Source: Demequina sediminicola (GTDB taxonomy: Bacteria; Actinomycetota; Actinomycetes; Actinomycetales; Demequinaceae). From it: a stretch of DNA of 64,000 bases. The stretch covers positions 565,751 through 629,750 of the forward strand of contig NZ_BBRB01000001.1 in NCBI RefSeq assembly GCF_000975055.1. Reading direction: 5' to 3'. Positions 29,689 through 40,214 of the stretch are shown here, piece by piece; position 1 is the first letter of the stretch, and every line of letters begins with the position of its first letter. The position numbers and the translations under genes are program-made. Under the pieces are notes generated by a model. It saw only the letters and a list, made by a program, of their open reading frames with translations, did not search any database and was not told where the DNA came from.

Positions 29689-29784
29689 GTAGAGAGGGCC
29701 GATGCTGGGGCGGCGGTAGGTGGGCGCGTCGTGCCGTGTCGAGCCGAGGGCGTGCCGGACCTCACAAATTCGCCTACGGCAGAA

Positions 29785-29867
29785 GTTGAGCAGGGTTCAC
29801 TCAACTTTCACGTTTTCCACTTGACATCCCCGCCGGGGCGTGGATACTTGAGTGTAGGCGGCTCAAC
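29785..29867 (+). promoter_or_regulatory. dnaK promoter with two HAIR operators for HspR
   Basis: Two HAIR-type inverted repeats are visible: GTTGAGC-N7-ACTCAAC at 29785-29805 and CTTGAGT-N7-GCTCAAC at 29847-29867, close to the known CTTGAGT-N7-ACTCAAG consensus. A -35 TTGACA (29821-29826) and -10 GATACT (29843-29848), 16 bases apart, lie between and overlap the second site. HspR, encoded at the end of the same operon, should repress here until heat or unfolded protein frees the promoter. Confidence 0.93.
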
Positions 29868-29937
29868 TTTGACGAAGCCGGCACCAATTCACGGCGCGAC
29901 CTCCCGGCCACGCCTCACGAACCAAGGAGGACATTCA

Positions 29938-31815
29938 ATGTCACGTGCAGTAGGTATTGACTTGGGAACCACGAACTCCGTGGTGACCGTTCTTGAAGGT
30001 GGCGAGCCCACCGTCATCGCAAACGCCGAGGGCGCACGCACCACCCCGTCGGTGGTCGCATTCTCGAAGACCGGCGAAGTTCTGGTGGGCGAGATCGCGA
30101 AGCGCCAGGCCGTCACCAACATCGACCGCACGATCACCTCCGTCAAGCGCCACATGGGCACTGACTGGTCCAAGGAGATCGACGGCAAGAAGTACTCCGC
30201 ACAGGAGATTTCCGCTCGTATCCTCGGCAAGCTCAAGCGTGACGCCGAGGAGTACTTGGGCGAGAAGGTCACTGAAGCAGTCATCACTGTTCCCGCGTAC
30301 TTCAACGACGCCGAGCGTCAGGCCACCAAGGACGCCGGTGAGATCGCAGGCCTCAAGGTCCAGCGCATCGTCAACGAGCCCACCGCGGCAGCACTCGCAT
30401 ACGGCCTCGACAAGGGCAAGGAAGACGAGCTCATTCTGGTCTTCGACCTCGGTGGCGGTACGTTCGACGTCTCACTCCTCGAGGTGGGCAAGGACGAGGA
30501 CGACTTCTCGACCATTCAGGTCCGCGCCACCGCCGGTGACAACCGCCTCGGTGGAGACGACTGGGACAGCCGCGTTGTCGACTTCCTGATCAAGGAAGTC
30601 AAGAACAGCGAGGGCGTTGACCTGTCGAAGGACAAGGCCGCTGTGCAGCGTCTGCGTGAAGCAGCCGAGCAGGCCAAGAAGGAACTGTCCTCGGCCACCA
30701 GTACCAACATTTCGCTCCAGTACCTGAGCATCGGCGAGAACGGCCCTGTCCACATGGACACCCGCCTGACCCGTGCGAAGTTCCAGGAACTCACCGAGGA
30801 CCTGATCGAGCGCACCAAGGCTCCGTTCCAGCAGGTCATCAAGGACGCTGGCATCCAGTTGTCCGAGATTGACCACGTGGTTCTCGTGGGTGGCTCGACC
30901 CGTATGCCTGCTGTCACCGACGTGGTCAAGGACCTCACCGGTGGCCGCGAGCCCAACAAGGGCGTGAACCCCGACGAGGTTGTCGCCGTGGGTGCAGCGC
31001 TGCAGGCCGGTGTCATCTCCGGTGAGCGCAAGGACGTGCTGCTCATTGACGTCACTCCCCTGAGCCTCGGCATCGAGACCAAGGGCGGCGTCATGACCAG
31101 CCTGATCGAGCGCAACACCGCGATCCCGACCAAGTCGTCTGAGGTCTTCTCGACCGCCGATGACAACCAGCCATCCGTGCTGGTGCAGGTCTACCAGGGT
31201 GAGCGCCAGTTTGCTCGCGACAACAAGCTCCTCGGAACCTTTGAGTTGGGCGGCATCGCACCGGCTCCTCGTGGAGTTCCGCAGATCGAGGTCACGTTCG
31301 ACATCGACGCCAACGGCATTGTGCACGTGGGCGCCAAGGATCGCGGCACCGGTAAGGAGCAGTCCATCACCGTGACCGGCGGCTCGGCCCTGTCCAAGGA
31401 AGACATCGAGCAGATGGTCAAGGACGCTGAAGAGCACGAGGCCGAGGACAAGGCACGTCGCGAAGCACAGGAGACTCGCAACAACGCGGAGACCTTCGCT
31501 TACTCGACCGAGAAGATCTTGTCCGAGAACGAGGACAAGGTTCCTGCCGACGTTGCTGAAGACGTCAAGGGCGCGATCGCTGAAGTGAAGACCGCTCTCG
31601 AAGGCGACGACGACGAAGCCGTGAAGACTGCGCACGACTCCCTCGTGGAGAAGGCACAGAAGATCGGCGAGGCCGTGTACGCCGCTCAGCAGGCCGAGGA
31701 AGCAGCCGGCGACGGCGCTCCCGCAGGCGATGAGTCCGCACAGGAGTCCTCTGACGAGGACGTGGTGGACGCTGAGATCGTCGACGACGAGACCGACGAG
31801 AACGACAAGAAGTAA
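29938..31815 (+). CDS. dnaK: Hsp70 chaperone DnaK
   Basis: This 625-residue cytosolic chaperone has ATPase motifs [36 protein letters not shown] and [11 protein letters not shown], a substrate domain with [18 protein letters not shown] and a long charged lid ending [13 protein letters not shown]. Length and order are those of actinobacterial DnaK. The start is ATG at [10 protein letters not shown] with AAGGAGG 7 bases upstream. It is the first gene of dnaK-grpE-dnaJ-hspR, the classic HspR operon. A short hairpin after the stop may help set the higher level of DnaK over the later genes. Confidence 0.98.
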
Positions 31816-31830
31816 CAACCCGACTGCGGA

Positions 31831-31850
31831 GGGCCGATGCACATCGGCCC
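31831..31850 (+). other. Hairpin between dnaK and grpE
   Basis: GGGCCGAT and ATCGGCCC pair around a GCAC loop, 15 bases after the dnaK stop. There is no T-tract, so it is more likely an RNA processing or stability element than a full terminator. It contains the octamer GCCGATGC. Confidence 0.6.
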
Positions 31851-31878
31851 TCCGCTACGGTCGCTCACGGAGGCCAAC

Positions 31879-32442
31879 ATGACAGACCAGAACCCCACAC
31901 CCGAACAGGGTGATGACCAGGATCCACTCGCTGAGGCAGAGTCGATCATCAACGAGGCAGCACAGCGTGCGGAAGCCGCTGGCGAGGCCGTCGAGGCCGA
32001 GGTCGCTGATCTCGAAAGCGCGGCGGAACTGCGTGCCGCCGAGCACCTCGCTGACCTGCAACGCCTTCAGGCGGAGTACGTCAACTACCGCAAGCGCGTC
32101 GATCGCGACCGGGAGGCCGCCAGTGGACTCGCGACCACGAAGGTCGTCGAATCTCTCATTCCGATCCTCGACGACATTGCCGCAGCACGCGAGCACGGCG
32201 AACTCGACGAGGGCCCATTCGCGTCGATCGCGAACAAGCTCGAGGAGACGCTCGGCCGTCTGGGTTGGGAAAGTTACGGAGCCGTGGGCGACGAGTTCGA
32301 CCCTCAACTTCACGAGGCTTTGACCTCCCAGCCGTCGACCGAGGTCGAGGTTCCCACCGTGCAACTGGTGGCACAGCCCGGCCACCGTATCGGTGACCGT
32401 GTGGTCCGCCCCGCACGAGTCATCGTTGCCCAACCTGAATAA
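31879..32442 (+). CDS. grpE: Nucleotide exchange factor GrpE
   Basis: This 187-residue protein has an acidic, disordered N-terminus, a long coiled coil (about 25-100, [20 protein letters not shown] to [13 protein letters not shown]) and a compact beta-rich C-terminal domain with [14 protein letters not shown] and a final [17 protein letters not shown]. It releases ADP from DnaK. The start is ATG at [10 protein letters not shown] with ACGGAGG about 6 bases upstream; an earlier start is in a poor context. Genes before and after are also chaperones of the HspR operon. Confidence 0.96.
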
Positions 32443-32468
32443 CACCACCCACGAAAGGAGGCGCTCGC

Positions 32469-33437
32469 ATGTCGAGTCAGGATTGGTTCACTAAGGACTT
32501 TTACAAGACGTTGGGCGTCTCCAAGGACGCGTCACAAGACGAGGTCAAGAAGGCGTACCGCAAACTCGCCCGCGATCTCCACCCGGACCGTAACCCCGGC
32601 GACTCTGCCTCCGAGCAGAAGTTCAAAGAGGTGGGCGAGGCGTACGGCGTTCTGTCTGACAAAGAACAACGTCAACAGTACGATGCCGTTCGCGCCATGG
32701 GAGGCGGAGGCCCGCGCTTCCAGGCCGGTGGGCCCGGAGGTCAAGGCGGCGCTGGGTTCGAGGACGCGTTCTCGAACATGTTCGGTGGCGGGGGCCGTGG
32801 CGCGGGAGGAACCGGCCAGCAATACCGTGCCCAGGGCTTCGAAGACATGCTGTCCAACATGTTTGGCGGTGGATTCCAGCGCGGACCACAAAAGGGCACC
32901 GACGTTGCCGCAGCCACGGAAGTCAGTTTCCGTCAAGCCGCACAGGGCGAGACCGTTTCGCTGCGCACCTCCACCGGCACCATCAACACCCGCCTGCCAG
33001 TCGGCGTCTCCAGCGGCAAGAAGATCCGTATCGCAGGCAAGGGCCGGCCTGGCACCAACGGCGGACCTGCCGGTGACCTGATCCTGACGGTCCACGTCGC
33101 CAAGCACCCGGTGTTCACCATGGACGGCAACAATCTGCGGATGTCCCTGCCCGTGACGTTTGATGAGGCTGCGCTCGGTGCCACGGTGGAAGTGCCCACA
33201 CTCGAAGGCGACCGCGTGAAGGTCAAGGTACCGAGCGGCACTACCTCGGGCACGACGCTGCGGGTCAAGGGCCGCGGACTGCAAGCAAAGTCCGGCACCG
33301 GCGACCTCTTAGTCACGGTCCACGTCGACGTCCCCCGCAAACTGGGCCGCAAAGCTAAAGAAGCACTCCAAGCGTTTGCACTGGCATCGTCAAAACACGA
33401 TCCTCGCTCACGCCTCTACGACGACGCAGCCAAGTAG
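32469..33437 (+). CDS. dnaJ: DnaJ-family co-chaperone without zinc finger
   Basis: This 322-residue protein has a J-domain at residues about 9-75 ([20 protein letters not shown], and the HPD motif in DLHPDRNPG). A Gly/Phe/Met-rich linker with two FEDxxSNMFGGG repeats runs to about 145, then two beta-barrel substrate domains. There is no CxxCxGxG zinc-finger block, so it is a CbpA-like (type II) J-protein even though it sits in the canonical dnaJ place. AAAGGAGG lies before the ATG. It stimulates DnaK ATPase and delivers substrate. Confidence 0.94.
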
Positions 33438-33486
33438 CAATACCGTGGGACTACAGGCTCACTGACGAGGCTTAAGGAGGACTGCC

Positions 33487-33933
33487 GTGCAACAACCCGA
33501 CGTCGACGAACCGGTCTTTCTGATCTCGGCTGCCGCGGAACTCGCCGGCATGCACGCTCAAACCCTCCGTCAATACGACCGCATGGGGTTAGTCGTCGCC
33601 CGCCGGCGAGCCGGTGGAGGACGCCGCTACTCGTTGCGCGATGTGGCCGTGCTTCGCGAGATCCAGCGCATGAGCCAGGAAGAGGGCATCAACCTCGCCG
33701 GCATCAAGCGCATCCTGGACCTTCAGCACAAGGTTGACCGTCTCACCGCTGAAGTAGAAAAGTTGCGCCCCCGCGCCGACACCGGCTCACGGGTCTTTAC
33801 CTCAGGCCCCGCCGGGCACGTGGTCATCGTGGAACGCGGACGCCGTGTCCGCCGCAACGAGGGACGCTCCATGGTGCTGTGGCGCGATGTCGGGCAAGAC
33901 GACGACGGTCGCGGGGAGATCCCGCGCGCCTGA
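33487..33933 (+). CDS. hspR: Heat-shock repressor HspR (MerR family)
   Basis: This 148-residue protein has a MerR-type winged helix at residues about 10-80: FLISAAAELAGMHAQTLRQY, DRMGLVVARRRAGGGRRYS and DVAVLREIQRMSQEEGINLA. A short coiled coil (HKVDRLTAEVEKL) and a hydrophobic C-terminal tail (HVVIVERGRRVRR) follow, as in other HspR proteins that need DnaK as co-repressor. The start is GTG, with AAGGAGG about 6 bases upstream. It is the last gene of the operon it should repress through the two HAIR sites, giving feedback. Confidence 0.95.
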   Translation: MQQPDVDEPVFLISAAAELAGMHAQTLRQYDRMGLVVARRRAGGGRRYSLRDVAVLREIQRMSQEEGINLAGIKRILDLQHKVDRLTAEVEKLRPRADTGSRVFTSGPAGHVVIVERGRRVRRNEGRSMVLWRDVGQDDDGRGEIPRA

Positions 33934-33958: not shown

Positions 33959-34327
33959 ATGGCCGACTCCGAGAACCCTCACACCCACCACGCACCGGAC
34001 TATGTCGAGATACCGGCAACAGATCTCGAGGCATCCGCACAGTTCTATCGAGACGCATTCGGGTGGCGTTTGACGGCCTACGGTCCCGGGTACTACGGAT
34101 ACACGTGCGCCGATGGCAAGGAACACGGCGGCATCTCCCAGGTAGGGGAAGTCAAGCCGGGAGGAGCACTCGTGGTGCTGTTCTCGCGCGACCTCGAGGC
34201 ATCACTTCAGGACGTGGTGAACGCCGGCGGCACCATCAGCCACCCCATCTTCGACTTCCCAGGTGGTAGGCGCTTCCACTTCATGGATCCCAGTGGCCTC
34301 GAACTCGCCGTGTGGGGTCTGCCGTAA
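33959..34327 (+). CDS. VOC-family (glyoxalase/bleomycin-resistance fold) protein
   Basis: This 122-residue protein has one VOC domain with metal-site style residues: YVEIPATDLEASAQFYRDAF and GWRLTAYGPGYYGYTCADG near the N-terminus, and FHFMDPSGLELAVW at the end, where Glu is the expected ligand. It lies 25 bases after hspR on the same strand, so it may be read through from the heat-shock operon. The ribosome site is weak. Substrate is unknown. It ends just before a bidirectional terminator. Confidence 0.85.
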   Translation: MADSENPHTHHAPDYVEIPATDLEASAQFYRDAFGWRLTAYGPGYYGYTCADGKEHGGISQVGEVKPGGALVVLFSRDLEASLQDVVNAGGTISHPIFDFPGGRRFHFMDPSGLELAVWGLP

Positions 34328-34339
34328 TCCATCGACCAA

Positions 34340-34380
34340 AAAAGAAGTCCGGTACCGCCCTCAGCTCGGTACCGGACCTC
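34340..34380. terminator. Bidirectional terminator between VOC gene and GGDEF-like gene
   Basis: The 11-bp stem GTCCGGTACCG/CGGTACCGGAC (34347-34357 and 34367-34377) has a 9-base loop. On the - strand it is followed by CTTCTTTTTTGG, a good T-tract; on the + strand by CTCTCGTGTTT. It serves both converging genes. Confidence 0.88.
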
Positions 34381-34397
34381 TCGTGTTTCTCACCTCG

Positions 34398-35162
34398 TTA
34401 GCGCTGAAATCCCTCAATAACGGCGGGAACGAAAGAGTGAGTTTCTGGCAGCGATTCCACCCACACACGAGGTGGCTGTCGCAGCAAGTCATCGACGCGC
34501 ATCTGCACTGCGCGATCAGAAATGTGATTCCGGAGTTCAGCGAGGCCCTCGCCGAGAGCATCGTCCCTCGCTACCAAGACGGCGTAGAGACCGTTGCCCA
34601 AGCGAGCGATAGGGAAACCAGGGCCGTACGCCCCGAGGAGCGCGTCACCGATGGCGGCATTGCGCGTCATCCGCTTCCACGGATCCGCATCTCCAGTGCT
34701 GACATCAACCATGATGAGCGCATGCGTGCGCGGTACGCGAGTCCCTTCGCGAGCGGCGGCGCCATACACCTCGGCAAGGCGCTGTACGAGGTATTCACTC
34801 GTACCCAAACCAGACTCGGCGTCCTTCATCGCGGGCGGCCCCGTCACGTCGGGCGAGCCCTCGGTCCAGCCCTGGCACAGTGCCCTGACGAAAGAGACAG
34901 GAGCGGATCCGTATCCGGCCGATTCAAACAGGACGCCCACATCGTCAATGGCTTCTGTAATCCCCACACCAGCAGCAGCGCGAGCCTGACCCAAGCGATA
35001 CACCGCAGGCGCGGCGTCAAGGTTCGCTGCAAGCGCCTCAGTCACGGCTTCCGCAGCAGGCGTATACCAATCACCGGGGCGCAACCAGACCCGATCCATG
35101 CTCGCCGACTCCCAGCGACGCAGCAACACATTGCCGGCCGTCGGAGCTTCAAGGTGACTCAT
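34398..35162 (-). CDS. Degenerate GGDEF-domain protein
   Basis: This 254-residue cytosolic protein has an N-terminal part (about 1-110) that is alpha/beta and unrecognised. The C-terminal part (about 114-225) looks like a GGDEF domain: DAESGLGTSEYLVQRLAEVY matches the opening D-x-LTGL-x-NR helix, ALIMVDVS the metal-Asp strand, and ARLGNGLYAVLV stands where RxGGDEFxxL should be. The signature is lost (LGNGLY), so diguanylate cyclase activity is unlikely; nucleotide binding is possible. The ATG at MSHLEAP is chosen over a TTG two codons earlier. It is divergent from the membrane sigma-factor gene, with 170 bp between starts. Confidence 0.65.
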   Translation of the reverse strand: MSHLEAPTAGNVLLRRWESASMDRVWLRPGDWYTPAAEAVTEALAANLDAAPAVYRLGQARAAAGVGITEAIDDVGVLFESAGYGSAPVSFVRALCQGWTEGSPDVTGPPAMKDAESGLGTSEYLVQRLAEVYGAAAREGTRVPRTHALIMVDVSTGDADPWKRMTRNAAIGDALLGAYGPGFPIARLGNGLYAVLVARDDALGEGLAELRNHISDRAVQMRVDDLLRQPPRVWVESLPETHSFVPAVIEGFQR

Positions 35163-35332
35163 ACACAATGAGACGGCCTGGTCCCCGGCCTATGACGCGG
35201 TTTCACAAGAAACTTTTCACAACACCCACGCGGCAGGTGTGAGCAATTGGGCAGACCAAAGCCTTGCTTTCACAGGTATAGCCAGGAAGCATAGGGGTTT
35301 AACTGTATTTGTAGGCGAGAAAGGCTGTCCCC

Positions 35333-38284
35333 ATGAGCTCCGAAGCGATCGCGATATGGACGGAAACGTCCAGCGATCCTGAGCTGATCGCTGGTGTGCG
35401 CGCCGGCGATCCGGGTGCCTTTGGCGTGCTCTACGAACGTCACGTGGATGCCGCCCGCAAGGTCGCGACGCAGTACACCAACTCCCCCTCCGACGTCGAT
35501 GACGTGGTGTCCGAGTCGTTCTCCCGCATCCTGCGCGCGTTGCAGCGGGGAGATGGCCCGGACCTCGCATTCCGCGCTTACCTCTTCACCATCGTCCGCC
35601 GCACAGGCATGGACATCATCAACAAGGGGATCCGCACCAAGCCACGCGACGACATGTCGCCCTACGAGGCCGCCCTGGGCCACGAAGCGTCCTCCGACGA
35701 GCCCGCATTGGCCGGCTTTGAACAGTCGATGGTGGCCGACGCATTCCGTTCCCTTCCCGAGCGTTGGCAAGCCGTTCTCTGGTACACCGAGGTCGAGAAG
35801 AAAAGCCCGAAGGAAATCGCCCCGCTGCTGGGACTGAGCGCCAACGGCACGGCCGCGCTCGCCTACCGCGCACGCGAAGCACTGCGTCAGGCATACCTGC
35901 AGGAGCACCTCAATACGTCCGACGAGATTGGCTGCATGGAAGCCAACTCTCAGCTCGGCACTTATGTACGTGGCGGACTTTCCAAGCGTGAACACCAGCG
36001 TGTAGATGACCACGTGAACCAGTGCGCGCGATGCGCCGCTCTGGTGGTCGAGCTTCAGGACGTCAACCGCGGCATGCGCGCCGTCATTGCTCCCCTCATG
36101 CTCGGCACGATCGGCATGGGCGCGCTCCAGGGTGGCCTACCTATTGGAGGCGCTTGGGGCCCAGGCGGCGCAGCTGCAGGCTCGGGTTCCGCGGCCACTG
36201 CTGGCGGTGGGGTCGCCGCGACGACGGGCACCGGCGTGCTCAACAGCTTTGGTGCTGCAGGCATCATGGGCACCCTCACACAACTCGCGCTCCCCACTGC
36301 GGCCGTCGTAGGCGCGGGCGCACTCGTGTTCGGTGGGGTTCAACTCTTAGGGTCGAACGGCGACGTTTCCAATGACAGCGCACTTACGGACGGTGAGCCA
36401 GACAAGATCGTGCACGTGCTCGGCGATGACGAGTTCCCAGCAGACGGCAACGGCGACTCCGCCAGCACGGATGCTGGCACGGATACCGCCAGCGACGCCT
36501 CAACCGATGCCGATGAGAACGATGCCGCCAGCGACGCTATCGGCAACGACACGTCCCCCGGCGGCGCTACGGGCCCCGGCTCAACGCAGGGCGGCTCAGC
36601 ATACGTGCCCGGTTTCGGAACCCACAGTGGTGCCAATACGAATAGCGGCGCCGGAACGAACAGTGGCTCTGGCATCGTCCCTAACTCGGAACCAGACGGC
36701 GCCACGGGCGGCTCAGGTACGGGCAGCGACTCCTCTACACCAGGCGACAACTCTGAAACCCCAGACACAGGCACCAGCACGGGACCAGACCCCGCACCTC
36801 AGCCAGATCCTGACCCGGACCCGACCACCGACCCGACCGCGGACCCCGCCCCCGTCCCTCGCGACGCGTTGCGAATCAGCCGTTCTAGCCTCGACTTCCT
36901 CGAGATTCCACGAGACGCTCCAAGCATCGCTATGGAACTGTCGAACATCTCCTCCGTCTCCGTGGATGACGTCACCGCATCAATCAAGCTTCCCGATGGC
37001 CTGACCTTCGGCCTCGGAGGCGGCGGCGGTGGCAACGTCGCCGGCGATAGCGTTGCGCTCCAACGCAGCGTCTCAGCAGCGACCGCAGCAACGTTCGCAG
37101 TTGGCGACTGGGACTGCACCCTGTCAACGGATTCACAAACCGCGCTGTGCACCTCACCCCAGGTCGCTGCCGGCACCACGACAAGCCTCGACTTCCCCAT
37201 CGGCATCACTGCCGATGAACTGGCGGCCGATGCCGCAACCCTGTTCACGGTCAATGCAGGCGACGTGAGCGACACCTACTCGCTCCGTACCGGCCTGCGC
37301 ACCACCGACGATGACCTCGACGACGGCTTCGAAGATCAGGGCGGCCTCGCCGTCTCCCACTTCGGTGCACCCCTCATGGGATGTGAGCCTGAAACCGACA
37401 GATGCGACGAGACCATGGGTAGCAGCACACACCCCAACTCTGTCCTGGCCATCGACAACAACGCGGTCGCCATGGTGCCTCTACGTGACCTCGATGACCA
37501 ACGCAACGGCGGCACCACCACTGTCGAACTCCCCGAAGGCGCAGTCGTGACTCACGCCATCCTCGAATGGTCCGCCAACCGTCACGCACCCGGTACCGGC
37601 AACTCCTCGCGATACGGCGACGACTCCTGGGATGGCGCACTTGATTCGGCACTTCTCCGTGTGCCAGGCGGCGACTTCGCCCAGGTCGAAGGCGTCGAAG
37701 TCGAACTCATCAATCAGGGAGGGCGTGAGTACTATCGCTCGCGCGCCGACGTCACCGCGCTCGTCGAAGCCGCAGGCGACGGCGACTACTCACTCGCAGA
37801 CGTGGCACAGGCCGCATCGCAACTCGACGACGTTCCCACCTACTACTCGGGCTTCGCGCTCACCATCGTCTACGAGGACCCCGCAGTCCCCGCCACCACA
37901 GCCGTCAAGCTGCTCGAAGGCCCCCACTGGGTGTCGACGTCCGCACCCGTGCAGCGTGCGCTAGAAACCCAAAACGCCGCCGACGTGACCGTCTCATGGA
38001 CAGCATTCGAGACGGATTATGGCAACCGCGGCGACTCCGTCAAGGTCGACCGCACAGCGTTGACCCCGCTGCGCGGTGATTCGCTCGGATCCTCGAACAA
38101 CGCCGGCGACTCCTTCGCCAATGGCTCGGTGTTCGCCAACTCGCTCGGCACCGACGCGAAGAGCTTCTCCCCCATTCACGTTGAAGCTGGCTCACACACA
38201 GTGACCGTGGCCACCTCCGGGGACAACTTCTTTGTCGGCACACTCGCGATCACCATCGCGCCCGAATCGACTGAAGCACCCTAG
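35333..38284 (+). CDS. Membrane-spanning ECF sigma factor fused to anti-sigma zinc finger and extracellular domain
   Basis: This is one 983-residue polypeptide. Residues about 15-110 are ECF region 2 (DPELIAGVRAGDPGAFGVLY, DVDDVVSESFSRILRAL). About 138-195 is region 4 (FRSLPERWQAVLWYTEVEKK, SPKEIAPLLGLSANGTAALA). About 200-240 is a zf-HC2 anti-sigma finger (DDHVNQCARCAALV, His-x3-Cys-x2-Cys). A Gly/Ala-rich hydrophobic stretch leads to a membrane helix (about 315-340). Then comes an acidic Ser/Thr/Gly/Pro-rich stalk (about 345-507) and a large beta-rich domain to the end (AILEWSANRHAPGTGN, EGVEVELINQGGREYY). The ATG follows GAGAAAGG. The frame is open throughout with uniform codon use, so the fusion is real. 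It resembles the fused ECF53-type sigma factors as I recall them. Release of the sigma part would need proteolysis. Confidence 0.9.
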   Translation: MSSEAIAIWTETSSDPELIAGVRAGDPGAFGVLYERHVDAARKVATQYTNSPSDVDDVVSESFSRILRALQRGDGPDLAFRAYLFTIVRRTGMDIINKGIRTKPRDDMSPYEAALGHEASSDEPALAGFEQSMVADAFRSLPERWQAVLWYTEVEKKSPKEIAPLLGLSANGTAALAYRAREALRQAYLQEHLNTSDEIGCMEANSQLGTYVRGGLSKREHQRVDDHVNQCARCAALVVELQDVNRGMRAVIAPLMLGTIGMGALQGGLPIGGAWGPGGAAAGSGSAATAGGGVAATTGTGVLNSFGAAGIMGTLTQLALPTAAVVGAGALVFGGVQLLGSNGDVSNDSALTDGEPDKIVHVLGDDEFPADGNGDSASTDAGTDTASDASTDADENDAASDAIGNDTSPGGATGPGSTQGGSAYVPGFGTHSGANTNSGAGTNSGSGIVPNSEPDGATGGSGTGSDSSTPGDNSETPDTGTSTGPDPAPQPDPDPDPTTDPTADPAPVPRDALRISRSSLDFLEIPRDAPSIAMELSNISSVSVDDVTASIKLPDGLTFGLGGGGGGNVAGDSVALQRSVSAATAATFAVGDWDCTLSTDSQTALCTSPQVAAGTTTSLDFPIGITADELAADAATLFTVNAGDVSDTYSLRTGLRTTDDDLDDGFEDQGGLAVSHFGAPLMGCEPETDRCDETMGSSTHPNSVLAIDNNAVAMVPLRDLDDQRNGGTTTVELPEGAVVTHAILEWSANRHAPGTGNSSRYGDDSWDGALDSALLRVPGGDFAQVEGVEVELINQGGREYYRSRADVTALVEAAGDGDYSLADVAQAASQLDDVPTYYSGFALTIVYEDPAVPATTAVKLLEGPHWVSTSAPVQRALETQNAADVTVSWTAFETDYGNRGDSVKVDRTALTPLRGDSLGSSNNAGDSFANGSVFANSLGTDAKSFSPIHVEAGSHTVTVATSGDNFFVGTLAITIAPESTEAP

Positions 38285-38312
38285 AAGCCTCGCGGGCGGT
38301 CGGGCCTGTGGG

Positions 38313-38918
38313 CTAGCGCGCGGGGCGCGGACTCCAGTCCATATCGAGCTGACGTGCTGTGGCGGTGGCAAGTTCTTCATCCACGAGGCGGCTCACCACG
38401 TGAAGCGCCATGTGAATCCCTGACGTCAAACCACCGCTGGTGATGACATCGCCTGCATCAACCCAACGCACTCCCGCGACGGACTCGGAAACGTTCTCTT
38501 CCGCGAGGCCGTCAACATCCTCCCAGTGCGAGGTGGCAGGAAGACCCTGCAACGCTCCAGCTCGTGCGAACAAGAATGACCCCGTGCACACCGACGTTGG
38601 CAACACCGATTCCGCTGCAAGGTGCCGCACGGCCGCAAGCAAAGGCTCATTCGACAGCGCCACACCCAGGTCAATAGTGCCCGGGACCACAAGGACGTCG
38701 AGATCACTGACGGTGTTGGTGTCGACCAACTGCGTGAGCGTCATGCCACCAAACGCCGTGACGTCCTTGCCGCCCGGGCTCATCATGACGACCTCGAATG
38801 GTGCTTCCATACCGGCGCGTTCACGCAGTCGCGATGCCGTGAGGAACACCTCATACGGCCCGCCAGCATCGATCAGGTCAAAGTCGTCAAAGACCAAAAT
38901 TCCCACGCGCAGTGTCAT
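38313..38918 (-). CDS. DJ-1/PfpI-family protein
   Basis: This 201-residue protein has the DJ-1/PfpI fold: LRVGILVFDDFDLIDAGGPY at the start, VLVVPGTIDLG in the middle, and the nucleophile-elbow cysteine in LPTSVCTGSFLFARAG followed by the AGDVITSGGLTSGIHMALHV segment of the isonitrile-hydratase/AraC-linked branch. Members include amidases, isonitrile hydratases and glyoxalase-like stress proteins; the exact reaction cannot be told. It follows the MFS exporter gene by 30 bases on the same strand, so the two are probably one operon. Confidence 0.88.
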   Translation of the reverse strand: MTLRVGILVFDDFDLIDAGGPYEVFLTASRLRERAGMEAPFEVVMMSPGGKDVTAFGGMTLTQLVDTNTVSDLDVLVVPGTIDLGVALSNEPLLAAVRHLAAESVLPTSVCTGSFLFARAGALQGLPATSHWEDVDGLAEENVSESVAGVRWVDAGDVITSGGLTSGIHMALHVVSRLVDEELATATARQLDMDWSPRPAR

Positions 38919-38948
38919 GGCCCAAGCCTATGACCTTCAGCGGTGCTG

Positions 38949-40214
38949 CTAGACGATGACGGCGCTGGTAGTGCGCGGACGCACCACGAACCACAGTGAC
39001 GCAGCACCGATGAGGAGCGCACCGATCATGACGGTCGCCATCGAGAGCGCGGACATGCCGAGCACACCGATCAGTGGCGTCACAGCACCAGCAACGACGT
39101 TGTTGCCGGCACCGATCAGCGATGCGGCGGTGCCGGCCTCGGCACCGTGACCGTTGAGTGCCATCACCTGGACGGATGGCATCACCAGTCCGAGCGGCGG
39201 CACAATGAAGAACAGCGGCACGATGACGCCGATGAGGCCTACGTCCACGATGGAGCAGATCGCCAATGCGATAGCGCCGAGCGTCATGAGCGTGATGCCA
39301 ATACCGGCGACGGCTCGTGGTGCGAGGACACGCATGAGCCGGCTCGCGATTTGCGTGCAGGCAATCTGTCCGGCGGCATTGATGCCGAAGATCACACCGA
39401 ACTGCTGCGCCGAGACGCCGTACTGATCCTGGAGGACGAATGACGAGGAGGACAGGTAGCTGAACAGGGCCGTGAATCCCATGGCGCCCACGATGGCGAT
39501 TCCCACGAAGGCGCCGTCTCCGAGCAAACGTCGATAGCGTCGGGCGACTTCGCCCATGGTCTGCTTGCCGCGCATGTGGGCTGGACGGGTCTCGTGGAGT
39601 GCGAACTTTGCCACCAGCAACATCAGCACACCGTAGGCGGCGAGGACCACGAAGATTTCGCGCCAGTCGACGACCCGCAGCAGTTGCGAGCCGATGACGG
39701 GTGCGATGACCGGGGCAACGCCGGTCACGAGCGCCATGTTGGCGAGCATTCGAATGAGCGCTTGGCCGTGGAACATGTCGCGCACCATAGCCATCGCGAC
39801 GACGGCACCACCTGCAGCGCCGATGCCTTGGAACACGCGTGCCACCATGACCCACTCGACGGTAGGTGCGAACACCACTGCGAGCGACGCGAGGACGTGG
39901 ACTGACGTGGCGATCAGCAGGGGCCGCTTCCGGCCAACGGCGTCGGAGAGCGGTCCCACAATGAGCTGGCCCAGCCCGAAACCGATCATGGTCGCGGTGA
40001 GCGTCATTTGGATTGCCGCGTCAGAGGCTTGAAGGTCTGCCGCGACGGTGGGGAAAGCCGGGAGGTACAGGTCGACGGTGAATGGCCCGAGGGCGATGAG
40101 TGCACCGAGGATCAGCACGTACGCCAGTCGGCGTCGTTTGGTGATTCCGCCCGGGTTGGTGACGGGAACGTCAACGCTGGGGGCGACCTGCGTGGGGGCA
40201 GACAAAGGGCACAC
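38949..40214 (-). CDS. Bcr/CflA-type MFS drug efflux transporter
   Basis: This 421-residue membrane protein has twelve predicted helices. The N-half has LGPFTVDLYLPAFPTVAADL and the loop GPLSDAVGRKRPLL (motif A), then VFQGIGAAGGAVVAMAMVRD, a hallmark of the Bcr/CflA subfamily of the drug:H+ antiporter-1 group. The C-half ends in WFVVRPRTTSAVIV. The start is GTG with a weak purine site upstream. It lies downstream of the nrdB terminator and upstream of the DJ-1/PfpI gene. Substrate is unknown. Confidence 0.92.
   Translation of the reverse strand: MCPLSAPTQVAPSVDVPVTNPGGITKRRRLAYVLILGALIALGPFTVDLYLPAFPTVAADLQASDAAIQMTLTATMIGFGLGQLIVGPLSDAVGRKRPLLIATSVHVLASLAVVFAPTVEWVMVARVFQGIGAAGGAVVAMAMVRDMFHGQALIRMLANMALVTGVAPVIAPVIGSQLLRVVDWREIFVVLAAYGVLMLLVAKFALHETRPAHMRGKQTMGEVARRYRRLLGDGAFVGIAIVGAMGFTALFSYLSSSSFVLQDQYGVSAQQFGVIFGINAAGQIACTQIASRLMRVLAPRAVAGIGITLMTLGAIALAICSIVDVGLIGVIVPLFFIVPPLGLVMPSVQVMALNGHGAEAGTAASLIGAGNNVVAGAVTPLIGVLGMSALSMATVMIGALLIGAASLWFVVRPRTTSAVIV

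Follow-up and report, generated by a model that had tools for sequence, protein, structure and literature searches.

Which genes could be served by a protein that carries a sigma factor, a putative inhibitor of this factor and a large outer domain on one chain, and how would the sigma factor become active? This question is raised by a gene of 983 codons in Demequina sediminicola (NCBI RefSeq assembly GCF_000975055.1), located in a stretch of 64,000 nucleotides of contig NZ_BBRB01000001.1 (positions 565,751 to 629,750), referred to here as the window, whose numbering is used unless another stretch is named. We consider it likely that the product is a one-protein signal transducer, in which a tethered, self-inhibited extracytoplasmic function (ECF) sigma factor is coupled to an adhesin-type sensor and, upon release, transcribes from promoters of the GCGTCAT type. 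The gene and the parts of its product are located as follows:

35333..38284, + strand: fused gene for ECF sigma factor, anti-sigma domain, membrane segment and ectodomain, 983 codons (open reading frame, domain matches and conservation)
35429..35614, + strand: sigma region 2, residues 33-94 (Pfam Sigma70_r2, 47.1 bits, cut-off 24)
35732..35884, + strand: sigma region 4, residues 134-184 (Pfam Sigma70_r4_2, 24.0 bits, just below the cut-off of 25.7)
35933..36037, + strand: ZAS-like zinc-finger anti-sigma domain, residues 201-235 (zf-HC2, 26.8 bits, cut-off 22.2)
36263..36349, + strand: predicted membrane helix, residues ~311-339 (hydropathy peak; helix 311-340 in a low-confidence AlphaFold2 model)
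36350..36847, + strand: acidic Ser/Thr/Gly-rich stalk, nearly free of Lys and Arg, residues 340-505 (composition; median identity 22%)
36848..37300, + strand: ectodomain 1, putative DUF11/Ig-like beta-sandwich, residues 506-656 (AlphaFold2 model, structure matches, DUF11 matches in the family)
37301..38281, + strand: ectodomain 2, DUF3344-like beta domain, residues 657-983 (family matches; profile common to fused and unfused proteins)

A first-pass annotation, made from the letters alone, had proposed an intact frame joining ECF regions 2 and 4, a zf-HC2 finger, a membrane helix, an acidic stalk rich in Ser, Thr and Gly, and a large domain predicted to lie outside the cell, and these elements were all recovered. 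The translation of 35333-38284 gives 983 residues and one stop, from an ATG start with AAAGG ahead. The nearest named relatives belong to Demequina, and in 27 of 31 named loci the sigma and C-terminal parts lie in one uninterrupted frame; two of the others run off contig ends (L049, L056) and two are broken (L054, L059). The 27 intact loci rule out a sequencing artefact or frameshift fusion, and a chance reading frame is ruled out by the conservation of the sigma part. Aligned with the window protein (28 rows in all), the 27 intact named loci share with it a median identity of 85% in the sigma part, 70% in the finger, 40% in the membrane segment, 22% in the stalk and 38-39% in the C-terminal domains. 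In the two broken loci (L054 8001-9317 in D. sediminis, L059 7956-9809 in D. litorisediminis) frame changes interrupt the fused gene and leave the sigma-finger part intact; these breaks may represent either sequencing errors or a real loss of the ectodomain.

The two sigma regions are spanned by a match to TIGR02937 (sigma70-ECF, residues 29-187) at 69.8 bits, well above its curated cut-off of 42.9, and the protein thus has regions 2 and 4 only, as is expected of an ECF member of the sigma-70 family. The finger shows the H-x3-C-x2-C signature with a further cysteine upstream that is characteristic of the ZAS type, and all 28 Demequina-type rows share its residues C201, H227, C231 and C234. The window protein contains seven cysteines, three in the finger (C201, C231, C234) and four that form the ectodomain pairs C595/C606 and C684/C691, each of them present in all 28 rows. 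The stalk (residues 340-505) consists of 43% S/T/G and 19% D/E, and Lys and Arg make up 0.6% of it, compared to 11% in the sigma part. The host genome (2.46 Mb in 11 contigs) contains ten Sigma70_r2 matches, including the fused gene, and an Rfam scan of 34000-39000 gave no match.

Upstream of the fused gene, and divergent from it, lies a second gene that we consider its partner, together with a predicted promoter:

34398..35162, - strand: partner gene, 254 codons, probable degenerate GGDEF-like protein
35169..35198, - strand: predicted partner promoter, GCGTCAT (35198-35192), N16, CGTCTCA (35175-35169) (alignment, genome pattern counts)
35199..35220, - strand: A/T-rich stretch upstream of the partner promoter, consensus gaAAA.tTttt (31-row alignment)

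A partner match was found upstream of the fused gene and on the opposite strand in 31 of 31 named loci, and on the sigma side of hspR in 30 of them (hspR falls outside the stretch in L057). The pairing extends beyond Demequina: 24 genomes were chosen, of which 20 have a fused sigma gene and four do not, and the partner was found in 17, each time as the divergent neighbour of a fused sigma gene. These 17 pairs comprise seven further families of fused proteins (f9, f20, f6, f46, f39, f45 and f35); in G107 the pair involves the third fused gene of the genome, and in G061 the partner match is in two pieces. The four chosen genomes without a fused sigma gene gave no partner match. The partner itself is probably a degenerate, non-catalytic GGDEF-like protein, judging from its sequence profile: matches of this profile to GGDEF structures were weak (7e6g, E 7.7e-4; 6zxb, E 3.2e-3), Pfam GGDEF_2 was detected in three of 24 partner rows, a DPxTGL-like motif in 24 of 24, and the catalytic GG[DE]EF motif in none of the 24. 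Pfam and NCBIfam gave no matches for the window's own partner protein.

An alignment of the gap between the two genes, with 31 rows (30 loci and the window; no row was obtained from L044), showed two blocks on the strand of the partner, TCTCA and an invariant CGTCAT. In the window the start codon of the partner follows six bases after the promoter, which fits a leaderless mRNA, and the A/T-rich stretch further upstream is a possible UP element. GCGTCAY pointing towards the partner was also found in 16 of the 17 pairs of other families (excluding L228, a repeat of the G061 pair), while 1.15 were expected from shuffles and three occurred on the other strand. GCGTCAY was followed by a CGTC-like block at a distance of exactly 16 at 28 of 33 sites in Demequina and 22 of 38 sites elsewhere, the next most frequent distance accounting for four and three sites, respectively. 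With a second conserved block at this fixed distance behind it, GCGTCAT is better read as the -35 element. The opposite assignment, with GCGTCAT as -10 and gaAAArTTT as -35, gave five genome-wide matches against two in controls and was dropped. CGTC-type -10 elements and a 16-base spacing mark ECF promoters.

A rule based on this arrangement (GCGTCAY-N16-NSTC, sought in at most 300 bases ahead of the sigma gene) was applied to 111 fused genes and retrieved promoters that point away from the fused gene in 54 cases and towards it in four, with none in either direction in the reversed controls. Positive families were f1 (32/32), f9 (8/13), f45 (7/13), f20 (2/3), f46 (1/1), f39 (1/1), f19 (2/6) and f35 (1/12). 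The GCGTCAT-type promoter is not common to all fused sigma factors.

For a genome-wide search, a looser pattern (GCGTCAY-N15-17-CSTCT) gave ten matches against eight in controls in the window's genome, hence the stricter form GCGTCAT-N16-CSTCTCA was used. Of 41 Demequina genomes, 39 contain this form, at 88 sites in total, and none contains the reversed pattern; ahead of the partner it was found in 37 of the 41. A total of 71 sites were classed by matches of the translated downstream sequence (E <= 1e-8) to seeds taken from the sites themselves, on which the classes rest, as a simple caller of open reading frames chose the wrong frame at some sites. Sixty-six of these lie ahead of genes from seven classes, each seen in at least two genomes: the partner (20), LRV-repeat proteins (15), NIT-HAMP-histidine kinases (13), bldC-like helix-turn-helix (HTH) genes (8), a second repeat type (4), a secreted class (4) that is presumably SipW-like, and DUF2510 proteins (2). 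The remainder comprises a Tat-type secreted protein and two more single cases, all three matching their own seed only, and two unassigned sites. Of the remaining 17 sites, 12 are located next to the fused gene, judging from their coordinates, and five have the same letters as partner promoters of named loci. In the window's genome there are three sites, ahead of the partner, the Tat-type secreted protein and the bldC-like gene, the last presumably a member of the BldC family (Pfam names it HTH_17/MerR).

Some of these downstream genes could be followed further. The kinase class follows the promoter in 13 Demequina genomes; in the single stretch that was followed beyond the kinase (L310 358-5974), a NIT-HAMP-histidine kinase of 1570 amino acids has Robl_LC7 and DUF742 genes behind it, a combination which we take to be a conservon. 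A signal peptidase gene lies behind one of the SipW-like-class genes. In the window's genome (G000), at L233 1634-2841 (C10, downstream of 135120), a site of this promoter class precedes two successive frames that by eye resemble Tat-type secreted proteins, the first of which had no Pfam match.

Two features of the surroundings are mentioned for completeness. The dnaK-grpE-dnaJ-hspR cluster (29731-33933) lies just upstream, and its order and its place beside the pair are kept in those Demequina loci whose stretches reach it. Ahead of the sigma gene, on the plus strand (35232-35300), a conserved box resembling GTGTGACCAAT is accompanied by the block CTTGC...GGAA.ATAG, the two being perhaps the gene's own promoter and an operator.

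The C-terminal domain had been described in the first-pass annotation as one that could not be named, a view that no longer stands: model and family matches allow it to be named as a putative DUF11/Ig-like domain followed by a DUF3344-like domain. An AlphaFold2 model of residues 501-983, based on the 28-row alignment, reached a pLDDT of 89.5 and a pTM of 0.88. Ectodomain 1 of this model aligned (VIA-align) with the alpha-macroglobulin receptor-binding domain 1edy (Z 10.5, rmsd 2.9 over 115 residues), the fibrillar adhesin CLIPPER domain 9ifr (Z 9.1) and integrin alpha chains (Z ~8-9). DUF11 was matched at E <= 0.1 by 17 of the 28 members (best 6.2e-6), the window protein not being among these. 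DUF3344 was matched by two of the 28 (best 3.2e-4), the window protein having no match to this family and its C-terminal part no Pfam match above cut-off. A relative of the same sigma group (L134, also a fused sigma) passes the DUF3344 cut-off, with 31.6 against 27.2 bits, and because the window protein itself has no match the label DUF3344-like is used. The ectodomain profile (A1) has matches in 34 of 246 genomes of the class, both in fused and unfused proteins, and two unfused DUF3344-like relatives that were inspected start with signal-like sequences.

In the available excerpts of a survey of fibrillar-adhesin-like proteins (PMC9210967), DUF11 is termed a stalk domain and DUF3344 overlaps cluster 23, which is found in N-terminal regions of predicted members. 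The authors regard the function of this cluster as ambiguous, its best DALI match being a P_proprotein domain with a possible catalytic role (PMC9210967), and for this reason we use adhesin-like rather than adhesin. Other structure and profile matches were set aside: the match of ectodomain 2 to CBM6E 8j3x (model positions 357-475, Z 7.7) was too weak in a list dominated by domain 1, Foldseek matches to whole integrins and clumping factors (TM-score ~0.2) reflect mere common beta-sandwiches, and a search of the ectodomain profile against PDB sequences gave nothing useful, with a single chain at E 0.57. The window's genome also carries, elsewhere, a large surface protein, visible as a frame of at least 984 residues that is DUF11-like by eye (L231, G000 C8, ~240115).

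From the computed anatomy, conservation, gene pair and promoter with its recurrent downstream genes we infer topology, inhibition, release, ligand sensing and the match between sigma factor and promoter as follows. The N-terminal ECF sigma domain would be kept inactive at the membrane by the adjoining zinc-finger anti-sigma domain. A single helix would span the membrane, and the DUF11-like and DUF3344-like ectodomain would be held by the stalk within the wall or farther out. A ligand, surface contact or wall strain could be the outside signal upon which the sigma part is set free, regulated intramembrane proteolysis being the likeliest route. Once free, the sigma factor would transcribe from GCGTCAT-N16-C[CG]TCTCA. 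Its first target would be the divergent partner gene for the degenerate-GGDEF protein; further targets would differ between species and could be a bldC-like gene, a conservon or genes for secreted or LRV-repeat proteins. A bolder version, in which contact or wall binding by the ectodomain directly frees a sigma factor that has a promoter class to itself and so provides actinobacteria outside the classical developers with a one-protein route from touch to transcription, switching on the degenerate-GGDEF partner, regulators of developmental type (the bldC-like gene, the conservon) and secreted proteins, is put forward tentatively and appears to us more doubtful than probable.

The orientation of the protein decides whether it could act as a surface sensor at all. 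A C-terminus outside the cell, as had been assumed in the first-pass annotation, is supported as the likeliest topology by one clear helix, the charge bias, the cysteine pairs and the secreted-type relatives. In 19-residue windows the hydropathy peaks at 318-336 (1.90), between finger and C-terminal domain, and the second peak at 251-269 (1.47) is hydrophobic enough to make two helices conceivable. Two membrane passes (251-269 and 311-339) would leave the C-terminal domains in the cytoplasm and the protein would be no surface sensor; many fused relatives have similar or higher values at 251-269, and extensions with one to two helices are described for ECF48, ECF52 and ECF53 in the available excerpts of PMC8999054. 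However, conservation is high in this segment, which comes immediately after the finger and has I252, P254 and G258 invariant in the 28 rows, and this makes it look more like an anti-sigma helix that contacts the sigma factor; moreover, two cysteine pairs of the ectodomain are invariant, and the relatives of the ectodomain are secreted or lectin-like domains. A cytoplasmic ectodomain is thus judged very improbable. Given an outer ectodomain, the sigma factor might still work while tethered, a ligand or tension shifting the finger with no need for proteolysis. Finger and sigma factor being on one chain, a local switch would suffice, and no cleavage site has been identified. On the other hand, activation of ECF48, ECF52 and ECF53 is expected to be proteolytic, with IutY as a demonstrated precedent (PMC8999054, as excerpted), and stalk and membrane segment, with their low median identity, look more like a tether than like a precise lever. 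Homologues of site-2 protease are encoded at two places in the window's genome (one of them at G000 C8:168499-169632), though they carry little information, as all 14 control genomes have them too. We regard activation without proteolysis as unlikely, and release by proteolysis, given the site-2 protease homologues, as plausible.

The other element to be weighed is the assignment of the promoter. GCGTCAT-N16-C[CG]TCTCA could be read by another sigma factor, the fused gene being merely the neighbour of one target; the genome offers ten Sigma70_r2 matches, the fused gene among them, and the promoter rule holds upstream of only one of 12 fused genes in f35 and none of four in f6. Yet the pair and the intergenic GCGTCAY are kept together in Demequina, f9, f20, f45, f46, f39 and f35, as expected for an ECF sigma factor and its target, and the -10 and spacing are of ECF type. 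Reading by another sigma factor is rather unlikely on this balance, although somewhat less so than activation without proteolysis. Besides these two families and the segment at 251-269, several results weigh against the proposed transducer. The promoter rule retrieved no site in f37 (0/8), f38 (0/5), f31 (0/4), f13 (0/5), f11 (0/2) or f7 (0/2), and the partner had no match in G110, G076 and G291 (f37), all of which have a fused sigma gene. In none of 32 Demequina cases does such a promoter point at the fused gene itself, so that its autoregulation is unsupported. An AlphaFold2 model of residues 1-345 was of low confidence (pTM 0.38), docking of the finger on the sigma domain being neither shown nor excluded. 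Finally, the putative motif of the fused sigma factor SCO4117, given as CSGYN-17-SRHA in the available part of PMC5826349, does not resemble the Demequina promoter.

The tethered sigma factor with its own finger is not unusual in kind, contrary to the first impression. Residues 1-268 (sigma and finger) were matched in 47 of 149 genomes of the order at E <= 1e-20 and in 87 of 246 genomes of the class at E <= 1e-15, weaker matches including short frames that resemble ordinary sigma factors. From eighty stretches around chosen matches, 77 other fused proteins were retained; L182 matched only in part, and L112 and L177 had open ends. All 77 have an invariant H, C and C in H-x3-C-x2-C, and zf-HC2 was detected at E <= 0.001 in 67. 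Their C-terminal parts matched Big_6 (9), ricin-B lectin (8), NPCBM (5), Ig_3 (5), I-set (5), DUF11 (5) and DUF3344 (3). Judging from these sequences, the ectodomain is a swappable module on a sigma/finger core that stays constant.

Sigma factors of the fused, membrane-bound type have long been catalogued (PMC5826349, PMC8999054), and the mention of such groups in the first-pass annotation was right: ECF48, ECF52 and ECF53 are published fused groups. According to the available parts of these papers, experimental study is described for SCO4117 and IutY only, the target motif of SCO4117 being putative. ECF52, of which SCO4117 of Streptomyces coelicolor was the first to be studied, combines an ECF sigma factor with a zinc finger, a membrane region, a proline-rich extension and a carbohydrate-binding domain (PMC5826349). 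The window protein likewise is actinobacterial and has the same order of parts (sigma, zinc finger, membrane, low-complexity region and outer domain), and a finger, a membrane helix and a long C-terminal extension on an ECF sigma factor, by which ECF52 is defined in the excerpts of PMC5826349, are all present in it. SCO4117-type proteins (f37, so called by architecture only, with NPCBM in the same frame) are ~43-45% identical to it over the sigma-finger part. They differ in their ectodomain, which is NPCBM there and DUF11-like plus DUF3344-like here: NPCBM was not found in the window protein at E <= 1 or in the 28 C-termini at E <= 0.1, and NPCBM_assoc was found in two of the 28 A1 C-termini (E <= 0.1). 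In a tree of 90 rows, five f37 rows fell outside a 49-row group with Demequina (SH-aLRT 91), and forcing 11 Demequina-type and five f37 rows together was rejected (p-AU 0.0026, from a quick tree with the group named post hoc). The single f37 genome tested for the partner (G291) and the eight f37 upstream regions set this family further apart, as described above. Since it lacks NPCBM and is not sister to the SCO4117-type proteins, we do not file the window protein as ECF52, even though it would work like ECF52 and ECF53.

With ECF53 and ECF48, compared by description, it has in common the C-terminal fusion, the zinc finger, one to two helices and the expectation of proteolysis (PMC8999054, PMC10766802, as excerpted). 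Some ECF52 and ECF53 proteins carry predicted glycosyl hydrolase or carbohydrate-binding domains (PMC10766802); the window protein, in contrast, has no Pfam match to either type. IutY of Pseudomonas putida (ECF243) similarly combines sigma and membrane-bound anti-sigma on one polypeptide, and its activation by proteolysis has been shown, but it belongs to the Gram-negative iron-starvation, aerobactin-responsive cell-surface signalling systems, and the excerpted description of it mentions no adhesin-like ectodomain (PMC8999054). Fibrillar-adhesin-like proteins, as presented in the excerpts of PMC9210967, have the DUF3344 and DUF11 domain types in common with the window protein, in which, unlike in those proteins, the DUF3344-like domain forms the outer end of a sigma factor. 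Compared to all of these systems, the kind is already known and the ectodomain combination is a variant; what the present analysis adds, and specialists could use next, is the predicted promoter with its short putative regulon. With a sharp motif that is nearly free of background and a short list of downstream genes, this branch of the fused sigma factors becomes directly testable, and an adhesin-type sensor is linked to conservons, a GGDEF-like protein and a bldC-like gene.

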